A stretch of 64,000 nt of DNA from Apostichopus japonicus (lineage: Eukaryota > Echinodermata > Holothuroidea > Aspidochirotida > Stichopodidae), in NCBI RefSeq assembly GCF_037975245.1, contig NC_092573.1, positions 22,163,265-22,227,264 of the forward strand. The letters run 5' to 3'. Shown one piece after another: positions 6,604-55,782 of the stretch. The position numbers and the translations under genes were made by a program. Position 1 is the stretch's first letter. Every line of letters starts with the position of its first letter. The notes beneath the pieces were generated by a model, which saw only the letters and a program-made list of their open reading frames with translations, had not been told where the DNA came from and did no database searches.

Positions 6604-9600
6604 CGATATAAGGTTTGTTGTCAATATTGTTTGCCAAAATCAGCCTCGAGGTATTATGTCGGATGATCACAAACATAAAACAAGAAACTTTACACGTAAT
6701 GTGATTTTTTTCCAAATTTTTTTAATGAAGTTTTCTTTTTTCTATTTCCTGAAGATTAGTTCCATTGTGGTTGTCACGAGTAAGAAACTTACAAATAGCA
6801 GTCGAAAAGTCAACACCAGGGAAATAATTTTGTTCTTACATTTTTGGTATCGTAACACTTTGGAGTTGCACTCATTTTCTTATTATCATAAGATACTAGA
6901 AATGCTAAAAGCTTTCCATTGTACAAAACCAGCTGAACGGCTTCACTTCGGTGTAGCGGTTTCATCGTTTTCGCATAATTTTGTCATTCGATGCCAGAAT
7001 CATTATAACATGCAGTACACCTCTCTGCCATGCCTAATAATTTTTACATTTCACATCTTGCTGCGAGAGCTTTATACTTGTTAAATTCTTACACAATGAT
7101 AACCACCGCCCCGCCCCCACCCAACGCCCCTCCCCAGCAACTCAAAAAGAAAAGAAAACTGTTACCTGACTTACGACTGCCCTAGGAGTGCTCATATGAT
7201 TGGTCGGAGGTTTCTGCTTGACCGGAGAACTGACTTCAGTCCTCACACTGTCTGCGGTCGGAGGTTCATCGAGAGAATCAAAATCAAAAACTTCTGCTCT
7301 GCTTTTGTAATGATATTTCCTTCTCTTCTGCTTCTTAAATGTCTCAGATATCTCTACGTCATCTTGCCAAGGCAGTTTTAGGGATTTCACGAAGCCGTTC
7401 CATTTGACGTTATTCCCGCCCGTCAAGGTGATGCTGCGGGCGTTGATGCCGGCGCAACTCTCACACATGAGCGGGGAGAAGAGTTTATGGAGTTCTTCTT
7501 GTCGACTCTGAATCAAATCTTCGTTTGCAGGCCTATTCTTGAGTCTAAGGACGGTTTCCTTCATTCCGTGGTTGCTCTTGGCACCCAGAATGCAGTCCTT
7601 ACTCTGACATCGTTCACAGGGTGGATGGTATTCTTCGGTGAGAAAAAGAAAAAAATCGGAAATATAAAAACCGCATTCCTTGTGTGTACTCGCAATTCCT
7701 TGTGTGTTCTCGCATGCCTTGAGTGTACTCATCTTGCTAGATTAGGACTGGTACTTGCAGTAGTTTGGGAATCCAGTATACAGAGTACATATTACTAAAT
7801 GTAAAAATTCAGGTCTTGTACTTTGAACTAGAGACTTTGAACTCTAATTTGTACTATAAATGCCAATGGGAATTGTACTTGTAGATGTAACCATGGTTGT
7901 TCTTGTTCGCCAAGTTTACCCTTCCTCCGAAACTATGACGTCACATCAACAAGCAGTAAAATTAATTTTAAAAAAAAGTAAAAAAAAGTAAAATTTAAAA
8001 AAAATTAAAAAAGGGAAGAAAAAATAAATGAGAGAAAAAAAAGAGGGATATTTAATAAAAAAAAATTTTGCAGTAATTCTTTGTGCTTTGCTCCTCGTTA
8101 CGACAGAAAGAAACCGTTTTCTAACAAGTTGTGAAAAACTGTTTAAAAGAAAAAAATTAAATGCTGTAGAGTAGTAATTGTGAGGCATTCCTCAGAAATG
8201 ATTAACTTACCTATTGATGTTCTTTTTCTGCACTGTTGAGGAGCTTGCACTTTGACATCTTGCTCATTACAGCATGATTTTATCCACAAGTCACATAGCT
8301 TTCTGGATAGTTCATCAACTGATTGCTGTTTGGGAATATGGTCATCCCCAGCAGGTGAATGAAAAGTCTGGCAGAACATATCCCCAGCACCTGAGATCTA
8401 AACAGACGAATTTCATTCTTACTGGCAAATGTCTCTGAAGAAAACATGATTACTGAGTACATGATTGTTAAGTTTGTCCTCACTCCACCAAACCTTACCC
8501 CCCTCCTCCCCCCACCGTTGAAACGGTTAACTACACGATAGCCAAACTGAACCGAGTATTGACTCGAAAAGAAAACACAGGGAATACGGGAATAATGGAG
8601 AAAGAGTGAACCCAGTAATTTTAAAATATTACCAAGGGCATGGAAGCAGTTATTTAAACCAAGAAAGAAAACAAAGGAATGTGGGGCAGTACCATACCAT
8701 GATGGAACAGCAAGCCTCTACCACTGTCTCCATGGCAACATGGAGAGCTGTCTCCATGGCAACATGGAGAGCTGTCTCCATGGCAACATGGAGAGCTGTC
8801 TCCATGGCAACATACTGAGCAGAACACCGGATTGTGTGTTCGATACTTTTCTGTACCGTTCCGCATAAGGCTCCTAAATCGACCGCTGACCGGTGCTTAA
8901 GAGTACCTAGAGCTTTATACTGGAATAAAATGTAAGTAAATGCTAAACTATTCGCTTACGTGAAGATAGATTGTTTTTACCTGTAACACATTCCAACTGT
9001 TGACATCATCACCTGCAGTCACAGGACACGCCGATAGTCCAAGTAACGGCTCTGATAATCTCTCCCAGAGTTTTGGATTGGCTGAAGGCTTCACTCCATC
9101 AACCACTTCTAACCATTCTCTATCAGAATCAAGAAAATGACCGTAAGATAACGACGCTGAAACAGATAGCGAGTAACAACGTATGGACCAGTACCCAAAT
9201 CAACTGGTCCATAAATTGGTTTTTAATAACATGCTACAGCACTTTGTCAGTTTCTTCTGCTGAAATACTAACATAAGTTATCTAGTAGACAATCTCTGTA
9301 TGCTATGCAATGATGACGTGTACAAATTTTAACTTGAAGAGGCATTAAATAGGAATATTCAAGATTTGTTCACTTATCCGAGGAGGAAATATGGCAATAG
9401 CGTGCACGTATCTCTTTGTAGTATTCCTTGATGAGCTCCGATACAAATCTAAAGTTTTATCTTACATTTTTTGTTTGTGTACAGCAGGGTTGTCCAACCT
9501 TTTGCAGAGGAGGGCCACATGGAATGATTATGATGAAGGAGGGGGCCGCAAGAACCCTACGCTCGATTTTTCGATTTTTTTGCCCGAAGCCCAAGGCAAC

Positions 9601-14700: not shown

Positions 14701-17700
14701 TTTGGGTATATAAGCCTTTCTTAAGGCCTTAGCTTTGAGCACTCTACAGTAACCTACCTTCCAAATGGCATAATCTAGGTATAGAGAGGTTTTTGTCTCT
14801 CTCTAGCAATTTTTCTCCAGCAAATGCTTCTTTCCAGCCCTCACTGAAAATAAACTTGAGAACCATTGGCCAAGAAGGAACAAGAAGTTCATGTTAAATC
14901 ATGTTGGTGTTCTAATATATGTAAGGATACTTAGAATGTCCATAGCTGCTCCACTTGGATAAAGCAGGATCCCAGCTACTTTGTCAGTGTTGGTCATGGC
15001 TGGCATGAAACTGAGGCAGCCTCCGTGGTACAAATGATTGGCATGCTGAAGATGATAAAGACAAATATTAATCATTATTAAAAATGTAAAGTTAAGTTGA
15101 AAATAATTGATTTCTCTCTTGCGAATCACTGAAAATATTCAAAGAGGGGAACCAGAAAGTGCTACATATGAATAGCACTTGAAACCATTAGTGTTTCACT
15201 AAGAGTTGAGATGACAGTTAAAGAGAAATGTAAAACATAAGAAATTAATTACACAGAAAATGAAGCAAAACAATCATCACAAAAATGCCCGAGAAAGAAC
15301 GGAAGTGAAGACATAGTGGGAATTGCTGTAGATGGAATGAGATTATAACTTTTACCGTATGAAGAGACTAAGCAGTTTTGACTGTCCAATAGAATCTTTT
15401 GCAAACAGAGCAAATGCAAATATTGTTTAGCAGGTGTTTACCATGATTTGTCTTGTGGTAAGCCATGAAAATCAAACTTTTGTTATATGTGAAGATACTG
15501 TTTTCAACGATAAGATTATGTTTGAGGCTGATAACACTGGATAAAGAAATGGGGAGAATATTCTTACAGTACTGGAATACGTAAAACTTTATTTTTTACC
15601 ACAAGGGATGAACATGTTTTTGTGGAAATTTTTCTTTGGCCTATTCTTTAGAATGCCTACAATAAATATTGTGAATCAAAGACTGTGCAGAAAAATGTTG
15701 CTTTTCAATTTCAACCAGTGCCTCACTTTGTCATGATACTGTAAAACAACATTCCCTCAATGCATTACAATCCATCTATTTAAGTATACACTTAACTTAA
15801 ACTAATTAACTTCTCAATACCCTTCCAAAACCATTTCTATTTGCAATTAAACACAGTATTCAAGTTAATACAATTAAAGTGTCATCCTTTTCTTTTTGGC
15901 AATTAAACTGCACCAACTCATGCTATCATTGTTGCTAAAGTTCACATCTGTTTCCTTGTTTCCACACATGTCATCTCAATTTCTTAAATCCTTGCTGCAA
16001 GTCCAACCCTTTTTGTTATTAACTCTGTTATCTACTCACCGTTTCCGTGCCCTTGTACTCCATCTCTTCGTGTAGTTCGTTCATGATGAGGTCTCTTGAG
16101 CATCCCAGATAGAGGACGTCATCATACTTCTTAAATACATCTGTGCTATCCTGTTCGAAAACAGAAACGCATGGAAAAAGAAGGAACCAGGTCAAGAAAA
16201 GGAGACATATAAATAATTTTGGATCGAAGGTGGGTGGGCCATGATGGAGAGGACAAAAATGAAAAAAAAAACAGGTGATATCCATCAGTAAATTAAACTC
16301 TCTCATCCTATGTATATTGAATGAATACGCTACTTAAATTAGGTGACCATACCTCACAATTGTCATCTTCCAGATATTCCAGTTTAAAAAATCTAGAATG
16401 ACATATAAAAGTTGAATCATCTACATATTTGCCACTTGGACTCGACGTTTATCTGTGACTGTCCCCGTAATGATCCGTCTTTGATAGTCGCAGAGTCAAA
16501 AAAAGAGCATATAGTTGACTAAAGAAGTTCATATTTGACGCTTGGACAGGACATGTATCGAAGACTGGCCCTGTAATGATCTGTCTTTGATAGTCGCAGA
16601 GTCAAACATAGAGTATATATTTGACTAGAGAGAGTTAGTCATGTTTAAATATTGCAATGACCTTGCACAGAGCTACTTACTCTTCTATAAGCATTCCAGT
16701 CGCCGAACAACGAGGTGTCAGCGATGGGTCCGAACACGAGCGATGGGTAGGACTTACATAGGTGCTCAAACTGTATGGAAAAAATAGATACTGAATCATT
16801 TTTAAGATGTAGAAAATAACATTCCTCCTGCATCAGGGCGGCATGAATGGTAGAAACACATTACAAATGTAAGGATATTTTTGTTGAGGGGGTGGGGGAG
16901 GAGGGGAAAGGATTTAAGTTGCCCTTTCGTCATAGAATAGAGAGATAGAACAGCCAGATACAGGTATAAACTGATCCATATTATTATGGCTTTCTTCAGC
17001 AGAGCTTAATACAATGCTTTTTTTATTATGATGTTATCCTCAGACCATTTTAACCAAAGTACTTTACTACCATTACATTTACTTCTACATTTAGTGCAAT
17101 ATTACATATCTAAAAGGCTCTAAATGTCCAACACAGAGGTCATTAAACTTGTGTAACACAGTTTCTCTGAAGATAAAATTATGCAGAGTGAAAGTATACA
17201 ACGTGCCTTGCAATTCTCTGAAGAACAAAATAACAGGCGGTGTGTCTGACTATACATTCAACAAAGAAAAGGAAGTTCAGATGAGCCAGGGCATGCGAAT
17301 CTTAAAAAGCCTTTTGTTACCCCAAGCAAAGTACTTCAAACTTTAATATAAATCTAGTGATAAGTGGGTGATGGAAATGGGGGGGGGGGGTTGGGATGAC
17401 ACCACAGCCATTTATTTTACTTTTTAGTTTAAACTATGAATGTTATTTGTTGAAGAAAAGATGCAGTCACCATGAACCACACAAAATAATACATAGAAAG
17501 AATATTACAAGTATCACGTATACATACATACATTATAAATCAAAACAACACATAGTGTAGCTTGTTTAAAGGCATTGAAGACTCGCCCCAAAGAGTGTGC
17601 CACCATCTTTAAAAAGTTAACTTTCCGTTGCTTGCAAGTGAAGTTTTTCTCTTGTCGCTACAAAATGCAGACAGTAATGAAACGTGATACCTTGTTATCT

Positions 17701-24400: not shown

Positions 24401-26339
24401 ATACTGCCCGAAGACTTTGTTGGAGCTGAAGATATTGTTGGTAAGTTTTGTTCCATTGTTTTCTTTGATGCTCAATAATTCTAGTTTGGATTGTGATTCA
24501 AAGTTCTTAATTTTGCAAATGCATATTTTTGTAGTATGCGTTTATATGCATAAATTTTGTTGTATACGTTGAAATGCATATTATTTAGTTGGATGCATTT
24601 TAAAGCATATTTTCTTTGACATCTACAGATGATGTCTTGAGAGGAAATGACGAAGAAGATGAAGGAGATGATGAAGATGACGTGAGGAGGGGTGATGAAG
24701 AGGAGAGGACAGACACTGTAGAACAAGTCACCTCATCTCAGTCACAAACCAACGTGAGTCATACAATTTGTGTACAAAATGTAGGAAGTTAAAAAACCAA
24801 GATGTGCAGTAGGAAATTCTACATTTTTCCTCCCTATATGCAACATTAGATCAGTTCAGATCCAAGATTTGCATGCAATTTACTTCATATCCTTAATTTA
24901 AAGCAGCATTTTGCGTTGGGTCGCTTTTTTCCACCTTTTTAACATGTGCATCGATTTTTTTACATGTATCAATCATAAAACAGTAAACTAAGATACCATC
25001 CAAGTTTCACCCTGCCAAGAGCGTTAATTAGCGAGTAATTAACGATTTATATCGATAATGAGTAAAAGTGTCCTCGACAAAGTTTTCATATCTCCAAATC
25101 CACTAGTTTGAATTCCACCAATCAGTGAATAGTATGTTTATTCATGAGCATTTTGCGTTTGGTCGCCGTTTTCTACTTTTTTGACATGTCCATCGAGTTT
25201 TTTACATACATCAAATCACAAAACAGCAAATTAAGATATTAGCCAAGTTTTTCCCTGTCAAAATCGTTAATTGGCGAGTATTCCACATCCAAAATTAAAT
25301 CGCATTCAGTTCCCAAACCCACTAGTTTGAATTCAACCAATCAGAGATGCAGGTTTAGTTATGAGCCGTTGCTAAAAATAGATTCAAGACTTTGCGTTGG
25401 GAGTTGTTATGCAACTCCCTGGTACAACTGCCATATAGACTACACAAATCAAGCGTGGTGTTATATTACGTATCTGTCAATGACGTTCGTAGTGTTTAAA
25501 TATTCATATTATGGGCGAGGTTTATTGGGTTCCCAACGGAAAATATCTTGGAGAACAACAAAGTTGAAAGTTGCAATTTTTTCGACTTTTATGCCACCGT
25601 TTGAAGTAAAATATAAATAGATAAGCTAGTTATGTATGTCGTTATGGCATATTGGAGTCAGTGAGGTTGAGAAATATCATAGTCGAGGACGCAAAATGCT
25701 GCTTTAACCTATTACGTTTTTTTTTCTTTCTAGTTTAATGAGCAGGCTTGAAATTGGGGCCCAGGGTCAACTAGGAAAGTATGAGATGAAGGATTATGTA
25801 TTCTCGTGGTCATAACATACTTAGTAAAAAAAAAGAAGACCTCAAAACTGTGGCCTAGTTATGTAATCCTCCCTGGGGCCAGACATGGGGCCAGACATTG
25901 CATGCTGCTGTGTCTGAGAACTACTTTGCGGCGATTGCAAATTCCTTACTATTTGTCGAGCTGATTTTTCTCGTATTTATTTTTCTACATGTAACAGACA
26001 ACACTGACAGAGGAACAAAAGAAAAGAATTGAAGACAAGAAGAGAGAGGCGTTAGAACGTAAAGCAGCGAAAAGAGCCAGACCAGATGATGGTGGTGGAG
26101 ATATGAATGGATTATCTCAAGAAGAGGCAGACAGTGTCCTCCCAGACTTAACATTAGCACAAACAGAAGAGAAGATGATGCAAGAAATTGATGATATGGA
26201 ATCTAAACTATCAGGTGGAACTCAAAAGGATTTACATAATCACACACAGAAAATGGAGCCTAACACACAAAGTAATATGGTCGAGAGTAGCCTAACCAAT
26301 GAAGAGATGGATGAAATAGAGAGAGAGCTGATGGGTTGA
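21445..26339 (+). CDS. TIPIN: TIMELESS-interacting protein (TIPIN), complete, six coding exons
   Basis: In the family, TIPIN partners TIMELESS in the nuclear fork-protection complex. It stabilises paused replication forks and supports ATR-CHK1 signalling through RPA. Exons: 21445-21601, 22680-22785, 23243-23441, 24368-24440, 24629-24753, 25998-26339. They total 1002 bp, 333 aa (human 301), all in phase. Residues about 88-165 are the Swi3/TIPIN domain (GPRGLPSLEKHF, MEHWLNRLYPKL, RLDMPILPEDF). An acidic run (DEEDEGDDEDD) lies in exon 5. Exon 6 opens with LTEEQKKRIEDKKREALERK, which matches the RPA32-binding motif shared by TIPIN and SMARCAL1. CTTAG just before AGCAATGG implies an upstream non-coding exon. 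AATAAA at 27113 is a candidate poly(A) signal. It is tail to tail with DIS3L. Confidence 0.95.
24032..24045. promoter_or_regulatory. Perfect palindromic X-box in TIPIN intron 3
   Basis: GTTACCATGGTAAC is an exact palindrome matching the optimal RFX X-box consensus. It is a single copy in TIPIN intron 3. The site is seen; activity is inferred. Confidence 0.4.
24902..25703. mobile_element. TTAA-flanked MITE-like element with internal duplication, about 800 bp
   Basis: The ends AGCAGCATTTTGCG (24902) and CGCAAAATGCTGCT (to 25703) are inverted, each bordered by TTAA (24898-24901 and 25704-25707), as in piggyBac-type insertions. Inside, a segment of about 240 bp is repeated directly: GCATTTTGCGTT(G/T)GGTCGC starts near 24906 and again near 25149, followed by matching AAAACAG(T/C)AAA and GTTAATT(A/G)GCGAGTA. 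No transposase frame is seen. It sits in TIPIN intron 5. The superfamily is tentative because the terminal motif is not the usual piggyBac CCYT. Confidence 0.65.
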
Positions 26340-26545
26340 TAACTAAGAGCTCTGCAACTTTGAGAATTGTTTCTAGGATGTCCTCACAGAAAACGGAGCC
26401 TAACACACAAAGTACTATGGTTGAGAGTAGCCTAACCAATGATGAGATGGATGAAATAGAGAGAGAACTAATGGGATGATTACTAAGAGCTCTGTAACTT
26501 CTAATATTTCTAGAATTGTTGCTAGAATTGTTTCTAGGATGTTCT
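26244..26545 (+). repeat. Tandem duplication of TIPIN 3' coding end and start of 3' UTR
   Basis: Copy 1 (from about 26244, including the last 30 or so codons and stop) is repeated 140 bp downstream (from about 26384), entirely past the stop. The second copy still reads openly from ATG at 26378 to TGA at 26477-26479, with TNDEMDEIERELMG at its end. A few substitutions separate the copies and there is no indel in the coding part. Copy 2 is in another frame relative to copy 1 because 140 is not a multiple of 3. Confidence 0.85.
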
Positions 26546-30783: not shown

Positions 30784-33700
30784 CTAAAATAGAAAAAGTA
30801 AACAGCCTCTGTGGTCATGAATGTCATAATTATTTTTGTCATACATTTTGTTCATGTTTGTTTGTAGTTGTATACAGCTAAGCTGTCCTCCTATTAATGT
30901 TTAAATCATTACCAGATCATGTTTTAGCTTCCTTTCAAAAAAAAATTCTGATTATTAGGGAGACTGCTATACATCTAAACAACCAACACAATGAGGATTT
31001 TTATGATATTGCAGTATAATAACATTCAATTAATATATTTATTTCTGTGACAAAAAGCTAAAGCCAAAGCTAACTGTAAAATGACAACATACTTACGTTG
31101 ATACTATTAATGATAATACATTCAAGGAAAGGTAAAATAGCTAGTAATTATTATTGAATATCTTTCCAATATTCATGCATCACCCCAGGCACTTTTTCAC
31201 ATCAGTATTAACCACAGGCTAAAAAGGCAAGCTGAAATTTTTTCAAACATTTTCAGGTTATTTGAACTGCAACTTGACTATTAACCATTCTAAGTAACTG
31301 CATTGCTAATGGAATGTCAGTAATAAGTCGTATCAATAATTTGACCAAAATCAACACAGGAAAGCTGCGTTGAAGTATGTTTTTTTGCATAATCTGTATT
31401 TAATGATTGACTGCTTTGAAACAACATTACAACCCCAAGCTGGGCTTTGTAGTTTTATTTGAAGAATAAAGTAAGTTTCTGTCAATATTACTGTATCATT
31501 TTTTATAAAGGGATGTAATGATAAGTAATCTGATTAACCTACCCTGTGTCTGCTATTAATGTGTGTACAGAGCTGCTTTAGCTCAATATTTCCCAAGAGA
31601 TCTTCATCAGGTTCATCAGAAATGGCTGCCATTAATAACCTGTGAACCTGGAACAAAAAAACAGTTCATATATTTATAACAAAGCTGGTAGGTGAGTTTG
31701 TCCAGGACACTTGACACCAAAGCCTCTGATTAGTTCTGTTAAAGACATTTTGTTCATCAAAGTGAGTTTTAGCATTGTCAAATGTCTGATCTGTTGAAAT
31801 ACACCATAAAGTCTATCAAGATTGGATGTTCATGTCCTCAGAAAGGATGGTAATGTCCTCGGGATAAATGTTCATGTCCTCAGAATGGATGTTCAAGTCC
31901 TCATGATGGAAGTTCATGTCCTCAGATTGGATGTTCATGTCCTCAGAAAGGATGGTAATGTCCTCGGGATAAATGTTCATGTCCTCAGAATGGATGTTCA
32001 AGTCCTCAGGATGGAAGTTCATGTCCTCAGAATGGATGTTCATGTCCTCAGAATGGATGGTAATGTCCTCGGGATGAATGTTCAAGTCCTCAGAATGGAT
32101 GTTCATGTCCTTTGTAGAGTTGGCAAGAGCCAGGCCAGGCCACAGAGACAATCATATTCTTCGTAAATTCATGGTACATCCGTGGGCGTAAGAAGAATTA
32201 ATGTCTATTGGGCAGAACTTCATATCTGATTCATCCATACCCATACCCTGGTACCCTAATTATCCCTGATCTCAGGGATGTAGCCCTGCCCCCTGACCTC
32301 ACTGTGAGGTATGACCAGGCCTCTCTGCCTCTGTACAATTATAGAGAGCACAGCAACAAAGTGATGAATATATCCATCTATGGTGCTAACCTCTGTACAG
32401 GTGTGTTTTTGTGGTGGTTCAATGGTCCTTATTTATGGATTAACTGGTTTACTTGGTAAGTCAAAGGTATACCTGTCAGTTCACTGATTAAATAGACAGA
32501 TCAGTGGTGTCCTTGGCAGGTTAATGGTCCACTTTGGAAGGTCAAGATTTACTAGGTGGATCCTGTGGTTTTCAGTTGATGGGTTAGAGATGTTTAAGAT
32601 GAGTCATGTACTTACAATGATATCAGCATATCTTCTGATCGGAGATGTGAAATGGGTGTAGAGATCAAGACCGAGCCCTGGAAGAAAGATGATAAGGTTG
32701 TTGATTCTTAAAACTCTGTACCAAGAATGCTCTACATTACAGAACATTTATCTCAATTGTTACACTGTCCTACAGAAAGAAACTGACCATGTGCTTCCAT
32801 GGATAACCTATAAGATTAATTCCAACTACCAGATTAATACCAGATACCATGCTACCAGATACTCTGAATGCCTTCTTACACAAAACTCAAACATCCACGC
32901 TCACAATACTTGGCAAGCTGATTACCTGCACCCAAGACAATGTCACAACAATTTCTCTAAAAATAACTTACATCATCGGGGCCATCGCACTTTGGAATCC
33001 CCTACCTTTCAATTTAAAGGCGACGCCTTCTTTAGTTGCTTTTAGAAAAAGCTTACAAAAGCCCTTCATCAATATTTACTAGAACTGCGAATTGAAACTG
33101 GGGTGGGGGGAGGGGGTGAGGGAAGGGAGAGGAACTGGTTTTGGTTCTATATTTCTAATTGTAAAGTTCTGTATTTTTTTCAGGGAGTGTCACTACCCGA
33201 CAAGCCCTATAGGGTTTTTTAGTTCACTTCCTTTCAAAAGTTTTGTTTCTTATCTCCTTCTTTGTCATATGTCATACTTATGTTGTGAAAGAACAAAAAT
33301 AAATAAATGAAAATGCATACCCTTTAAAATAATAAACTCTACATTCAAATCAGAAATAGCTTCATACAAAGTCAGGTGAAGTATGAGCATGAGAGACCAC
33401 TTTCTCATTGTTTTTAGTGATACCGATGATCGTTAAGTGACACTTACATCTTTCCCCTTTTGTTTTAATATAATATACTACACGTAACTCCAAAGTGTCA
33501 ATAAGACAGTTGCTCACCATAATGAAAATAATGGTCTTCTGAAAGACTGCCAGTTGAGAAGTAGAGGGCGTTAGACATTGCTTTGGTTGCTAGGGACCTG
33601 AGTATTTTGTTATAAACTGGATCCTGTTGGTCAATGCACTGATCTAATGATTCAGCCAATGCCTTGTTAGAACTGGCAAAGAAAAGAGAGAAGAACAGAT

Positions 33701-36700: not shown

Positions 36701-39700
36701 ATCAATACAAGTGTTCTTTAAACCTTAATTCTCTGACTCTTAAACTCAAGACAGATATTTGGCTTGTCCCCCTCATACCACGATGGCCTGCCATTAAACT
36801 GTGTCCTTGTCCCTTTCCTATGAAATACTGCATAATATGTGTTTTTATGAAAGTAAACATCTATGAAGGAAACATCTTATATTTAGGCTACAGTAATTTA
36901 GTTCTCTACCTCTTTCCTTTCTCCTCTTCACTAAACCCAGTCAGCTCTGGTATCTCCTCCTCCCCAACCTCTCCATCATCATGTATCATCTGAGCAGCCT
37001 ATAAGGAAACAAAAACACAATTGACTTTTCTCTCAAGAAGTGCCCTAATAATCTGAGATCCAAAGCAAGTATTAGATTGAGGGGTGGATGGGGGAGGGTG
37101 AGCAGGGTTGTTACCCATTTCTGCTATTTTAATTTATCTATCATTACTTTAAAATACCGGTGCTGTGGCCGGGTGGATTAAGGCGGTGGCATTTGAAGCA
37201 ATGAGGCTGAGCAATCGGGAGGTTCTGGGTTTGATACCCGGCTGGGTCATAGTAAGGTGGGTTTTTCATCCAAGAGCAATCTACGGTTTTCCCATCTGAA
37301 ATGATTTCTTAATTGAAAAGAAGTAGTTAAAATGTTGAATTGGAAGCAACCCGACATGTGAGTTGTAATCCATAAGCCCTTGCAGGCCTTTTCCACATTT
37401 GTGGTCGCTTAAGTGTCGCTAATATAACTGTTGATTATTATTATTATTATTATAAATTATAATTTATTATTATTATTATAAATACACAATTTTTAGTTAT
37501 GTAACTACAGCATCACGGTTATTCTGATTTCCAAACTCACATTATCACTTCTCGACATTAAAGATGACCGAGTATACAGTTTTCAATGGGCTTACCTCAT
37601 AGAACATCTTGTAAGCGGATGAAATGATTGTCCTGCCATACCAGACCTTCTCGACCTCGTAGGTCTCTGGCTTCAACTTCCAAATCACGCTGACAGCGTA
37701 GCGATCCACTCCGCCGATCAAGGAACAAAGATCGGAGCTTAAAATAGCGGGTAGCATATCAAATCTTCTGTCGGCTAGATAGACGGTAGTCGATCTGTTG
37801 ATGGGAAAATAAGACAGGAGTGAATACGTAATTGGCCAGTTAATGATGAGTGATAATAGTAAAAAAGGTACGGACTGATTCTGTGACTGGTTAAACGTAA
37901 ATCTATTCAAATCAAGTTTGTATGTTTAAAGTGGCATAACCACCACGTCAAATGATGTCTTCTACCTTGTTCCTCTGTTTTGCTTGTTTTGAGAGGTGGG
38001 GTGGGACTTTCATAATAATAATAGTAATTGAGATATATAATGCGTACATATTCACCCAGAAAGGGTGCTCAAAGCGAGGGAGAGAAAGAGAGAAAAGAAA
38101 AGCCAAAAAACGAATGAAAAAAACGAATTACTGGTTTTCATTTGTTTAATACTATCTTGAAAAAACATCCATCAGAAAATGAAAGAAGGATTAATGATGG
38201 TATCAGATGTGTGACTACCATCGCCTGTGCATTAATACTAATACTACAAATAAACCATCCGATATAACAATCTATCTTTCCAAAGACATATTAACAGTGC
38301 TGTTCTTTTACATTAAATTGGCAATTGTTTCTATATTTAACTTTTAACTAGAAACATTAGGTCACTGAGATATTGAGACATCATGTAATAGTACTATGTT
38401 TATGCAATGACCCTATGAAGACATTTAATATGAAATACAGAATATCCTAGGAAGGTTCAATTAACCAGCTTGTACCTTGATCTTGCTTCCAAATCTGTCA
38501 ACGATTTGGTCTTGACGAAATGAGAAACATCGGCGATGTGCACTCCCAGCTCGATGTAGCCTTTCTTCAGTTGCCTGCAAGAGAAATGCTAAACTTTCAT
38601 GAATTGCATTTATACTTTGCTGCATTTATGCAAGCTTTTCAGGTTCACTGTTTCTCCACAAAATAAAATATAAAAGAATGTAATTGTTGTTAATATGTGT
38701 TGCTCTTGTCCCCTGCACTTCTGTCAGAGATTATATGGCTTCATACATGACTTCATAAGACTAGCTAAGAATATACATAGTTCTAAAGATCACCCACTTC
38801 ACTCCCAGTTGATCTCTCAGTGCAATAGAACAAACAAGTAAAATCTACGAAATCCTACTATCTTGCCAACTTTTAGAATTATGCTTTTTAAGAACTCATT
38901 TATCTACAGAGCAGCCATTTATATTCAAAATGGGTTCTTAGAATCTCTGTTATAATCCTTTTAATCTTTCAACCTTCTAATCCTCCATCTTATTTCTTAT
39001 TTGTTCATGCTTTCATAATTGTTCATTTTACATGTTTTTGTGTATCATTTTTATGTGTCCTATTTATAAATTTTGTAATTTATACTGGAAATAAAGAAAT
39101 TGAAATTGAAAAAAAAATGGAATTGCAGGATTTCAAATTGTTAACTACCTGACTGAGAGAGTATCATCTACATCCTCACATCCCTTAGGGTCGATGCTGA
39201 AGACCAGGTGGGTCTCTCTGAGGTCCCGCCTCTTACCCACCTCTGCATCATCCATCCTCCAAGGATTGTCATCTGTATTGACTGGCATCTCTTGCAGCTG
39301 GAGAGAAAGGAGACAAAAGATTTCACAAAGTACTGAGATTTTTTGGTCCATTGTGTGATCAGGAAATATAATTTCATAGTTTTTTGACTGGATTTCGAGG
39401 GGTACCCCCAATGAAGAATTCATACACTTGACCTCTCATTTCTCATAACTCTATATTATACATGTAGAGAGATGTGGACACTGGCCATAATTGCTATGGG
39501 CTCATTTGAATATGACAGTGCTTGCAAATAATTATGAAAAAGTACATTCTACAGATTAAGCATGGTTAAGTATTCAGTTTCTTTTAGTATTTTCTAAAAA
39601 CGCACTGAACTGGCTCAGAAAAAACTTGATGGCCAGCCTTGATGGCCAGCCTTGACAGCCTGCTTTGTTGGCCAGCCTTGATGGCCAGCCTTTAGGGCCG

Positions 39701-50929: not shown

Positions 50930-53900
50930 ATGATCAGGAGGAAGATGGCCAAGACATTACTCATTTTGTCTGCTGCTGTTGCTGTTTTATCCACCATCTT
51001 TTGGAATGACTTGATGACATTTCTTGGTGGTTCAGCTACTAAAGGTAAGTTTGCACTATAGGTTATATCAAGCTTGAAAAAGGAAATGCAGGCTGATATA
51101 AAGAACTGTACTGTAAGGTTAACAGTTTAGAAAATTGTTTTATATGGCACAATATGAACAAGAATTTCCACAATAGATATGGCAAGATCTTTGTAGCCAT
51201 TTCCTTTTATTTTTTTCTCAGAGTTGACCCTTATGCTGAAGCTATAATACACCCTTACTGGGACAAATCAAATGCCACTCTTATCTTATCCCGGTGGAGT
51301 TGACATTCTTGTGTACATCTTATCAAATCCTTAACATAATTTTAACAATAATTATTGTACATTAACATTTTATGTTAAATGCATCTGACTTCCCAATCAA
51401 AAGGATCTGATGTATTCATTCACAGCAACTTGAATAGTTTCATATAACATTTGTGAAATTCACAAACAAAGAGATTTAGTAGGGTATGTGGTTATGTGAT
51501 TCTGTTGATTGTCAGTGAGCAAAATAGTATAAACATTCTCTGCCATCTAAAGATACATGTAAACCATATCACTTCCAAAGAAGATTCAGTCCATTATTTT
51601 GAAGCTCAGTGCTCCTTATTGCTATTTTCCTCTATATTGGTCCATCACATTTCACTTTTACACATATATACATCATTAGATCAACAGAATGATGGCCCTA
51701 AAAGCCCTACTGGTCTTACATATTTTCTACCCCTCTCTTACCTGTTTTGACTCTACTATTTTGCCTTCCCATTTACCTAGCCTTACAACAGGTCGCATTT
51801 TAGCACAGTGCCCTTTTGACCCTCGTCCTGGTCATCGTCAATACCCCTTTTCCTTCAAATTTACCACTCATAGAGCCTGTTCTGGTGATAATTTTTCTTT
51901 CGATTGAATTCACGTACTGTATTCTAACCGTGTTTTTGACTTCGTTCATCATCTAAATTTTCTCGACATATCATGCAGTTTAGTAAATTATACTTGACGA
52001 TATCATCAACCTCGATGGGAATCATAAATTTTATTGCCAGGGAGTCCAGGATTTTCCAAGGCATTTGATTAGTTTATATCTGTACAGATGAACCATTGAT
52101 CAGGGTAATGGAATATTGGGAATAGACTAGTCTTTCACATATATATATTATGTTTGAGGCTTGTAACATGATAATTTCTTCAAGGGAAATTCCAGTGTGA
52201 AGCCCCATTTCACTCAATTTATGATATGTGAACATAACCTATTTTGATGAGCTAAACACCTTCAATTACCTACAAAGTGGATGATAGTATGTGGCCTGGG
52301 ATGTCATCAGGATGCATGTTTTTCAAAAGGTTTACTAAGGCTACTATTATAACCTTGTTTGTTAATTTATTCTTGAAATCTGATATATTGGAACATTTGC
52401 ACAGCTGTTAATGTCCTCTGTATTTAGAATTGCATTAGAATAATACAACTTTTGGTAGAAATAGTATATTCTTCGGTGACTAAATTATTGAAAATAATAA
52501 GAAAACATTTTTTGTTGAACATTGCTAAATTGCCCTTTAGGATGCCATCATTCAATCTGCTGTTGCCAGATATGCAATTTACCAAATATCACCAAATTGA
52601 AGAAATTCATATCTTTGCAACAAAAATACTACACAGATGTGGTTATGGCCTAAGTTGTCGACCAATTTCAGCAATTTTGCTAAAGCAGTCAACTGCAGCC
52701 GTCAGAAGATGTTTTAAAATCCTCAGTTATTGAGTTTGTCACTTGTTTTTTTGTTTTTTGTAGTGTACCAAAGGCCATTTAAATCCACAGGTAATGAGTT
52801 TGTCACTTGCTTTTTTTTTGTAGTGTACCAAAGGTCTTTTAAATCCACAGTTAATGAATTTGTCACTTGTTTTTTTTTAGTGTACCAAAGGTCTTTTAAA
52901 TCCAAATTTATTAATGTTTGTCACTTGATTTTCTTAAAATTGCAGTATACCAAAGGGAAGGTTTAGTTATCACTCAGTCGAGTGCGGTCTCTTTTGCATG
53001 GCATGGTAAGGAGGTTCTTACAGGTCATTTGGGTACAGTTCTTTGGAACCACCCACAAGTGTGTCCTGATTCCCAGTTCTGTCTTGAATGGGAAGGCAAT
53101 GCTAAGTTGAAGGTAATTTGAAATTTTGTGGAATTCTCCCTTACTGTAGCTTATCGGGTGGGTTAGCTTTTAGTGGAGCATTGTATGTGAAGCTTCGACC
53201 CGAACCTTTGTCTGTTCTGAAGCAGATTGCTATCAAACTTATGTACTCTGCAGATCATTTTGTCTTTGTAAGTCTTGTCAAACTTGCAATTGTACTGTCC
53301 ATGAATATTGGTGTTTTCATCTGTGTTGTGGTGGCACCTGCTGTATGCAAAACAAGGAGCACTTTCAGTTCATTTTTTTTTTATAAAAGTGTGATGGGGG
53401 GGGGGGGGTAGGGCACATCTCCTGCACTGTTTGAGGTAAATTATAGTTTGACATATTTTCAAGGTTCAAGTTTATTTGTTCCATCATCATTAATTTATAT
53501 TTTATTACATGATTATTATTTAATTAATATACTTATATATAATAAATGATATGCAATAATCAGTATATATACATATGATGGGTAGAGGAGTCAGAATAAG
53601 CAAAGCTTTTCGAGTCTGACCCCTTACAATAAAGAAAGGAAAAGAAATAAAGAAAATAATTAGCAATGTGCTAATTACAAAAGAATAACAGCAACATTTA
53701 AGATTGGTCTAAATATGCATATAATTATATGTAATATGAAGTCGACATCAATTTTTTCTCAACCTATTTATAAAAGTATATAAGGTAATATTCAATTCAG
53801 TGAGATTAGATGAGAGTGAATTCCAGAGAGTCACACCACTTGAACGAATCTGGACTGTCTAAGTCTAGTTCTTGAATATGGAATGTAGTAGAGAATACAT

Positions 53901-55782
53901 CGATCTAGTGTTGTAATGATGCAGATTATATCTATACTGAAAATATGAGTTGTAAATAGGAGGAAGATTTCCATTATTAAACTTAAATATAAAAATACCA
54001 CAAAATATTTACTTGACTGCTAATTTATTTTCCTTTGCGTCAAAACTTTTCACTCTGTTAAGTATATATGATATCCCTATCATACTATTCCAGGTGGACT
54101 TTCAAGAATCAGGAGATATAGTCTGTCACCACATTCACTGGAAGGCAGCGAAGGACATCACATTACTGGAAGACTGTTACGACATGAAGTCTGCTCACTG
54201 GTACGGTGGTGGTGAAGTCTTTGAGCAACAATGGCCGCTTGAAGAATGGCAACTGCCGATGACACCTTACGTATCAGGAGACTTTCTGATCAACGAGGAT
54301 GCGAAATACAGTTACGGATCCATGCTTGAGCCATATTGGCTATCATCCAACGGGGTAGCTATACATGTCGATTCCTCCACTCCGCTTCACGTCGGCATCT
54401 CAAAGGAGAAACTTTGTCTGCGGAGCACTTACGAAAACTCTAAGTATCAGAACCATGGAAAGTCCCCACCTTCGATGGACTACAAGCTTTGTATCGGACG
54501 AAACGTGAAAGAAGTGCACGACTACATGAGGGCAAACTTCTTCTTCTTTCCTTCCAGTTGGCCCGACGAGAGGATGTTTAGAAGCCCGGTGTGGTCCACG
54601 TGGGCCCAGTATAAGACGGGCATCGACGAATCATCTATCATAGAGTTTGCCAAGGCTATCCGGGAGAACAACTTCAAGGACAGCCAGCTAGAAATCGACG
54701 ACGGGTTCCAAGTCGCCCATGGTGACTTTGTATTCGACGAGAAAAAATTCCCAAATCCTTCAAAGACGGTGCAGGAACTCCATGATATGGGCTTCAGAGT
54801 TACAGCTTGGGTAACCCCATTTGCAAATCTGGACTCTGAGGCATACAGAGAAGGTGCTAAGCTGGGATATTGGGTGAAGAATGCACATGGGGAGCCCGGG
54901 ATCATCAAGTGGTGGAATGGTCATGGAGCCGCGCTAGATTTCACCAACCCCGACGCTGCAAAGTGGTATGTTGATCGGCTGAAAAGATTTCAGGAGGAAA
55001 CGGGCATCGACTCTTTCAAATTCGATGCCGGTGAAGGATGCTATCTGATCGATAACTTTCAAACACATGCAGAGTTGAGCAACCCATGCGAATACACCGC
55101 ACATTATGCAAATACCGTAGCAACTCTCGGCAACCAGATCGAGATGAGGGCTGGGTGCAGAAACCAGGGCTTGCCAATTTTTTTCCGGATGATGGACAAG
55201 CATTCATCGTGGGGATGGGACGACGGTCTGAAAACGATGCTAACTACAGCAGTGACGTTTAGCATCATGGGTTATCCTTTTATTCTCCCTGATATGATCG
55301 GAGGAAATGCATATGACGGTCTTAATGTCCAAAAGACTGTGTTACCAGATAGGGAGCTCTTCATTCGATGGCTAGAACTGACTGCCTTTCTCCTGTCCAT
55401 GCAGTATTCCGTTCAACCGTGGGTCTTTGACGAAGAGGTGGTGAGAATCGCCCACAGGTGGACGACGTTTCACGGGGAAGTGATAACGCCAATGATTTTA
55501 GAAATTGTGCAAAAAGAAACAGTAGTCGATGGCAGTCCCATCATAAGACCTCTGTGGTGGATAGCCCCAACGGACAAGTATGCGACTAGGATAGACTGTG
55601 AATTCCTCGTAGGTAACGATATGCTTGTAGCACCTGTTGTTGATAAGGGCAGGAGGGCTAGGGATGTGTACCTACCAGAGGGGAATTGGATGGACCCAAG
55701 TGGCCAGGTGCTCTCCGGTGGGCGATGGTATGGTCGTATGAGAGCCCCTCTGGATGAAATTTTATATTTTGTTAAGCAGTAA
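50930..55782 (+). CDS. MYORG: Myogenesis-regulating glycosidase-like protein (GH31), complete, three coding exons
   Basis: A glycoside hydrolase family 31 protein of the MYORG/KIAA1161 type. The human protein is an ER/Golgi type II membrane alpha-galactosidase. Exons: 50930-51044, 52946-53112, 54094-55782. They total 1971 bp, 656 aa (human 714), in phase. Residues 8-26 are a signal anchor (LLILSAAVAVLSTIFW). The catalytic (beta/alpha)8 region lies in exon 3: the nucleophile motif SFKFDAGEG (Asp405) and the acid/base region SSWGWDDGL (Asp470 or Asp471), then LPDMIGGNAYDG. All look intact. MYORG-like proteins can be multi-copy in invertebrates, so direct orthology is not certain. Intron 1 ends in an unusual tandem repeat of its own acceptor. 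AATAAA at 56182-56187 is a candidate poly(A) signal. Confidence 0.93.
52735..52945 (+). repeat. Tandem copies of the exon 2 splice-acceptor region, with candidate 27-nt microexon
   Basis: Three units of about 60 bp precede the true exon 2 of the GH31 gene. Each has GTCACTTG, a T-rich tract, TAG and TGTACCAAAGG, which is the start of exon 2 (TATACCAAAGG at 52946) with one change. The first copy is bounded by a good acceptor (TTTTTTGTAG) and a donor (CACAG|GTAATG), defining a 27-nt exon, 52764-52790, that would insert nine residues in frame (about VYQRPFKST). In copies 2 (52824) and 3 (52881) the donor is lost. The repeat is clear; splicing is unproven. Confidence 0.6.
53455..53990 (-). mobile_element. 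LINE 3' end remnant, minus strand
   Basis: The reverse strand reads RTRLRQSRF then GVTLWNSLSSNLTELN and FINRLRKN before a stop near 53750, the typical last block of a non-LTR reverse transcriptase with one frameshift or stop visible. A long AT-rich 3' UTR with CTTTATTGTAAGGGGTCAGA follows. It lies in intron 2 of the GH31 gene, antisense to it. Confidence 0.6.

Follow-up and report, generated by a model that had tools for sequence, protein, structure and literature searches.

A MYORG-like GH31 gene

The window analysed here, meaning the whole stretch of 64,000 bases, contains a MYORG-like GH31 gene that reads as one frame of 656 residues when three exons are joined (a slash marks the splice junction here and below):

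Exon 1, 50930-51044, + strand: inferred coding exon for the cytosolic tail and signal anchor, assigned from its open frame, phase and a hydrophobic 19-mer; donor AAG/GTAAGT
Exon 2, 52946-53112, + strand: inferred coding exon of 167 nt (residues 39-94, with Cys78 and Cys84), assigned from phase and open frame; donor AAG/GTAATT
Exon 3, 54094-55782, + strand: GH31 catalytic region through the stop codon, assigned from the match to PDB 7qqf and from Pfam

In a phmmer search against solved structures, human MYORG (PDB 7qqf) matched residues 102-653 (E 1.7e-147) and was the closest structure, the next different protein being a bacterial GH31 alpha-galactosidase (8j50, E 7.2e-65). Pfam detected both the GH31 barrel (PF01055) and the C-terminal domain (PF21365). 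Residues D405 and D462, numbered by counting along the alignment, align with D463 and D520, which are described as the catalytic nucleophile and acid of human MYORG (PMC9491548). The 19-mer at residues 6-24 is the most hydrophobic (mean Kyte-Doolittle 1.98) and the only such stretch near the N terminus, a candidate type II membrane anchor. The protein resembles MYORG, a GH31 alpha-galactosidase, as described for 7qqf (PMC9491548) in its GH31 barrel, its single putative N-terminal hydrophobic anchor and the position of its domain end; it differs in that the part of the N-terminal domain encoded by exon 2 has no phmmer alignment.

Two disulphides are described for the N-terminal domain of human MYORG, C125-C134 and C158-C284 (PMC9491548). 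Residues C105 and C227 align with the second pair, and C78 and C84, both in the exon 2 stretch without phmmer alignment, have a spacing similar to that of C125-C134 (6 compared with 9). When residues 1-158 were used as the phmmer query, human MYORG aligned from residue 102 onward only, and residues 21-133 returned from the solved structures only a polyhedrin (E 0.89), which we take as chance. Because these homology searches gave no credible alignment of exon 2, its assignment relies on phase, an open frame, flanking splice sites and the distance between the two cysteines. The introns on either side of it are 1,901 and 981 nt long. A search of genome contigs for relatives of the protein returned one, a Bacteroidales GH31 protein with 32% identity, which is of no help for the intron; the protein search of viral contigs gave one pattern match and no relatives, and neither Rfam at its gathering threshold nor a tRNA search produced a match.

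A tandem array spans the intron 1-exon 2 boundary

The end of intron 1 and the start of exon 2 lie within an array of four head-to-tail units (52713-52956), each of which closes with a 3' splice site followed by the opening 11 nt of exon 2, exact or nearly so:

Unit 1, 52713-52774, + strand: 62 bp, with acceptor A1 (exon-like sequence from 52764) followed by TGTACCAAAGG; donor-homologous site CAGTTATTG
Unit 2, 52775-52834, + strand: 60 bp, with the sole donor, CAG/GTAATG (GT at 52791-52792); ends in acceptor A2 (52824)
Unit 3, 52835-52891, + strand: 57 bp, with the donor-homologous site CAGTTAATG; ends in acceptor A3 (52881)
Unit 4, 52892-52956, + strand: 65 bp, with the inferred working acceptor A4 (CAG/, exon from 52946), followed by the opening 11 nt of exon 2

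At A1, A2 and A3 the repeated element is TAG followed by TGTACCAAAGG, and at A4 it is CAG followed by TATACCAAAGG, with spacings of 60, 57 and 65 bp between successive first exon-like bases. Over aligned columns, units 1-3 are 88-91% identical to one another and unit 4 is 77-84% identical to them. The unit boundaries are clean, the left edge lying inside the intron and the right edge 11 nt into exon 2. Across the 64-kb window, TRF reported a single array at this place (52713-52932, period 60, 3.6 copies, score 279), and in a control that scored the best array of period at least 10 in each of 300 dinucleotide shuffles, the 279 obtained for 51045-53005 compared with a shuffle mean of 12.4 and a maximum of 55. 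The 11-mer TRTACCAAAGG occurs four times in the window with at most one mismatch, always inside the array; at least four occurrences were also found in 31 of 100 shuffles, a count that is not unusual, so that the evidence for the array is its in-register repetition and not the 11-mer. The array is far beyond chance expectation and constitutes a head-to-tail minisatellite spanning an exon-intron boundary. A 36-letter pattern of the array had no matches in viral contigs.

These results bear out the preliminary description in its two main structural claims, namely that the acceptor and exon start recur upstream at a spacing of about 60 bp, and that this arose by local duplication of the acceptor plus the first exon bases, which the unit alignment and the shuffle test both support. 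Its account of the extent needs amending: there are indeed three upstream acceptor copies, but the full units number four and start at 52713, because a homologous half-unit sits upstream of the first acceptor.

Conflicting signals at the four acceptors

Splice-site strength was scored under simple, vertebrate-type assumptions, and the scores below are to be read as such. The pyrimidine fraction from -20 to -4 is 0.82 at each of A1, A2 and A3, a value reached by 1.55% of 7,590 AGs, and 0.59 at A4, which is reached by 31%. The longest pyrimidine runs at A1-A4 are 7, 10, 9 and 7 nt, so that only A2 and A3 exceed A4 and A1 equals it, and the AG context is CAG at A4 and TAG at the other three. Within 60 nt upstream, no match to the branch-point consensus yUnAy was found at A1 or A2; A3 has one at 27 nt (TTAAT), and A4 has matches at 18, 32 and 36 nt. 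The signals at these sites are therefore in conflict, pyrimidine content pointing to the upstream sites, whereas the branch-point motif and adjacency to exon 2 point to A3 and A4.

General rules of splice-site choice can be argued in both directions. Under exon definition, the splice sites nearest to each other across an exon tend to be chosen, as described for a minigene test on 5' sites (PMC9225289), and with flanking introns of the lengths given above exon 2 falls in the exon-definition range, which would favour A4. The stronger site is also reported to have won 86% of the 5' site competitions in that work, and given the richer pyrimidine tracts of A1-A3, the upstream sites may see more use than assumed.

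A donor site most simply gained in unit 2

The acceptor of unit 1 and the GT of unit 2 together delimit one candidate exon:

Candidate pseudo-exon (microexon), 52764-52790, + strand: 27 nt, running across the junction of units 1 and 2, and followed by GTAATG

The preliminary description had proposed that the first copy carries a donor making a 27-nt, in-frame acceptor-donor pair beside the membrane anchor, and this holds: the frame is kept, giving 665 residues compared with 656, with no new stop. Its further statement that the other two copies had lost the donor does not find support, since GT occurs in one of the four homologous sites. These sites (alignment columns 14-22) read CAGTTATTG, CAGGTAATG, CAGTTAATG and AATTTATTA in units 1-4, and columns 17-18 are TT, GT, TT and TT, so that GT is confined to unit 2. 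Units 2 and 3 are tied together by column 20 (T, A, A and T in units 1-4) and by a common 4-nt gap. With GT in one site of four, a single gain in unit 2 is the simplest history on any four-unit tree, and a history of loss would cost at least two changes, unit 2's nearest relative and both remaining units being without GT; this polarity rests on four rows, and the alignment of unit 4 is uncertain around the donor site. The donor was thus most simply gained, not lost, to judge from the aligned units.

Predicted pairing with U1 is -10.6 kcal/mol for the exon 1 donor, -8.1 for the microexon donor and -6.6 for the exon 2 donor, and falls to -1.4 and -1.1 kcal/mol at the homologous sites of units 3 and 1, respectively. 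Across both strands of the window, 110 of 7,103 GTs reach -8.1 kcal/mol or better. In a scan of single substitutions, unit 3 offered just one change that attains that value, and units 1 and 4 offered none. An origin in two steps (TTATT to TTAAT, then T to G) was considered as a requirement and set aside, because G alone on a unit 1-type site already gives -7.2 kcal/mol and so beats the donor of exon 2.

The candidate microexon and its predicted products

If joined to A4, the microexon is predicted to lengthen the protein by nine residues, placed behind K38 and immediately on the luminal side of the membrane anchor. The remaining combinations would disrupt the frame. Direct use of A1, A2 or A3 adds 182, 122 or 65 nt, respectively, and shifts the frame in each case, with stops after 105, 85 and 66 residues, and the microexon joined to A2 or A3 also shifts it, with stops after 94 and 75 residues. 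The intron downstream of the microexon would be 155 nt long with A4, 90 nt with A3 and 33 nt with A2, the last of these probably being too short to splice. The possibility that A3 is the true acceptor and the frame had been misread was rejected, the A3 reading stopping after 66 residues. A frame also stays open from A1 across the array (52764-52965), the A1-A2 and A2-A3 distances of 60 and 57 nt both being multiples of three, with a stop just inside exon 2, and we read this as chance.

Neural microexons of the eMIC/SRRM type are about 27 nt long or less, and in length and frame the candidate fits this class (27 nt, frame kept). The cues described for eMIC-type exons in fly and mammal are a UGC near the acceptor, a long AG exclusion zone and a strong branch point (PMC8797185). 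At A1, inspection by eye found no TGC in 52724-52763, no yUnAy match lies within 60 nt, and the AG exclusion zone is 29 nt.

Pairs of this quality are not rare in the window. When the thresholds are set at the values of the candidate itself and exons may be 20-200 nt long, the 64 kb contain 36 acceptor-donor pairs that score at least as well, the candidate counted among them. Of these, 17 lie on the + strand, 6 with a length that is a multiple of three, and 19 on the - strand, 5 with such a length, which makes 11 in all. In two others of the 17, the acceptor is A2 or A3 and the donor-like site lies inside exon 2. One donor-like site within exon 2, at 53006, has U1 pairing of -8.1 kcal/mol or better, at least equal to that of the exon's own donor (53113), and by the count of lengths its use would shift the frame.

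Tandem arrays of period at least 10 span 1,807 of the 64,000 bases, and those of period at least 30 span 1,089, coverage from which some overlaps with splice sites are to be expected somewhere in such a genome. With random placement, about 2 of 100 acceptors should fall inside an array; selection probably lowers this figure, but overlaps of this kind are unlikely to be rare across the genome. Two other tandem duplications with long units lie at 16424-16636 (106 bp, 2.0 copies) and 26245-26500 (140 bp, 1.8 copies), which suggests that local tandem duplication is common in the region.

Origin and consequences of the array

Judged on sequence features, the locus is probably an ordinary minisatellite whose expansion ran across a splice acceptor, with a pseudo-exon that in all likelihood sees little use. 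As seen in the sequence, a boundary stretch of 57-65 bp, made up of roughly 50 intronic nt (polypyrimidine tract and AG included) and the 11 nt that open exon 2, underwent tandem duplication to four units. The rightmost unit keeps the exon and most likely still supplies the main acceptor, and the three upstream units would be passengers, acceptor-like sites with no exon behind them. A change in unit 2 that produced CAG/GTAATG, in a direction suggested by the four units, would then have combined with the acceptor of unit 1 to complete the 27-nt in-frame pseudo-exon, which, if active at all, most likely contributes a low level of splicing noise. If A1-A3 were used directly, or the microexon were joined to A2 or A3, the frame would shift and nonsense-mediated decay would be expected; joining of the microexon to A4 would yield a protein with nine extra stalk residues. 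Little use is favoured because chance often produces comparable pairs, one unit of the four has the donor, and A1 and A2 are without yUnAy; the points against it are that A1-A3 are richer in pyrimidines than A4 and that the microexon donor, at -8.1 kcal/mol, beats that of exon 2, at -6.6. On balance, we take the structure to be real and its origin to lie in an ordinary mechanism, and a function appears unlikely.

We consider it unlikely that the microexon is spliced in frame in some tissue, lengthening the MYORG stalk by nine residues. Such an exon birth would be a minority reading with its direction reversed, the acceptor coming first, from duplication, and the donor later, from a substitution. 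Beyond the kept, open frame and a donor with better U1 pairing than that of exon 2, it draws some plausibility from human disease pseudo-exons, for which donor gain is reported as the commonest route (210 of 359 mutations; PMC8819188), and from human MYORG, which is described as disordered between the membrane helix and the N-terminal domain (PMC9491548), so that an insert there would likely be tolerated. However, A1 has no yUnAy match within 60 nt and is without the cues of eMIC-type exons as described in fly and mammal (PMC8797185), and frame keeping by chance has a probability of 1 in 3. Moreover, A3 lies 90 nt past the donor and ahead of A4, with a long T run and the branch-point match TTAAT, and shifts the frame, so the in-frame outcome requires that A3 be skipped.

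A further reading, in which the array would serve as an exon nursery, is quite unlikely. A self-multiplying acceptor would hand out ready acceptors that carry the sequence of an exon start, and a substitution in the spacer would both make a donor and erase the TTAAT of the next acceptor (turning it into GTAAT), leaving a 27-nt exon that could be joined in frame and lengthen the luminal stalk of MYORG.

Very unlikely, in our estimate, is a role as decoys, in which the upstream acceptors, with or without the microexon donor, would occupy the spliceosome or steer it towards RNAs with a shifted frame, and in this way control how much productive mRNA is made. Three pyrimidine-rich AGs do stand ahead of a poorer true acceptor, their extensions of 182, 122 and 65 nt all shift the frame with early stops (after 105, 85 and 66 residues), and decoy exons that promote intron retention are described for OGT and others (PMC12017769). 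Known decoys nonetheless depend on exons that are recognised within retained introns, and drift accounts for this sequence as well. Least probable is that misassembly inserted the repeat copies: tandem repeats are often mis-sized in assemblies, and the copy number of the array could still be off, but the sequences of the units diverge by 9-23%, with changes private to single units, which argues that they are not assembler-made copies.

To return to the expanded minisatellite with its probably little-used pseudo-exon, the locus would be informative either way. Should the microexon be used, it would offer a clean, datable example of how an exon starts, with a duplicated acceptor first and a point-mutation donor second, and with the intermediate units still standing alongside the new exon. 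Should it be unused, the locus would indicate that tandem duplication readily places acceptors of strong appearance ahead of the one in use, with no evident harm, and would provide a useful natural test of how the spliceosome chooses among near-identical acceptors.

Relation to known systems

The component parts of this arrangement are already known. 'Modern' introns derived from tandem arrays form one related theme in the literature. De Grassi and Ciccarelli (2009; PMC2812944) described internal tandem repeats at exon-intron boundaries in human segmental duplications, with 27 intron modifications. The present array is like these repeats in having a minisatellite-type unit that lies over an exon-intron boundary and offers extra splice sites; as described there, however, those repeats vary between paralogues, have RNA support and create novel introns within exons, whereas here a single locus is known from DNA, the repeats are on the intron side and the candidate is a cassette exon.

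Donor-gain pseudo-exons (PMC8819188) offer a second parallel, an existing acceptor plus a single-base donor gain giving an intronic acceptor-donor pair, and of the features named in the definition there, the acceptor on the 5' side and the donor on the 3' side are both present in the candidate. Under the definition set out in that paper, inclusion must also have been measured, and sequence duplicated from a canonical exon does not count; here, by contrast, the acceptor is a duplicate of the neighbouring exon's own and brings with it 11 nt of exon, 10 of which agree with the opening bases of exon 2. Intron gain by tandem genomic duplication (PMC4974935, PMC3443670) likewise copies splice signals by duplication, as described in those reports, but in the present case an existing acceptor was multiplied and no new intron arose inside coding sequence. 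In the literature searched we found no report of the locus, nor any case in which multiplication of an exon's own acceptor had led to a candidate in-frame microexon, which is not proof of absence.

Other features of the window

Elsewhere in the window, a perfect tandem array at 8724-8813 consists of 3.8 copies of a 24-bp unit (100% matches), and this unit, CTGTCTCCATGGCAACATGGAGAG, is by eye partly self-complementary. At 31819-32111, 21-bp units are organised in a 105-bp higher-order repeat in which about 110 codons are open on both strands, and the weak Pfam matches there (SMN_Tudor, E 2.8e-06, with no stretch passing alone) look like repeat artefacts. On the - strand at 37545-37925, an open frame matches DIS3-like exonuclease 1 (PDB 9g8n, E 1.2e-30) over its residues 42-112 and Pfam RNB (E 4.8e-18), identifying it as an exon of a DIS3L gene.
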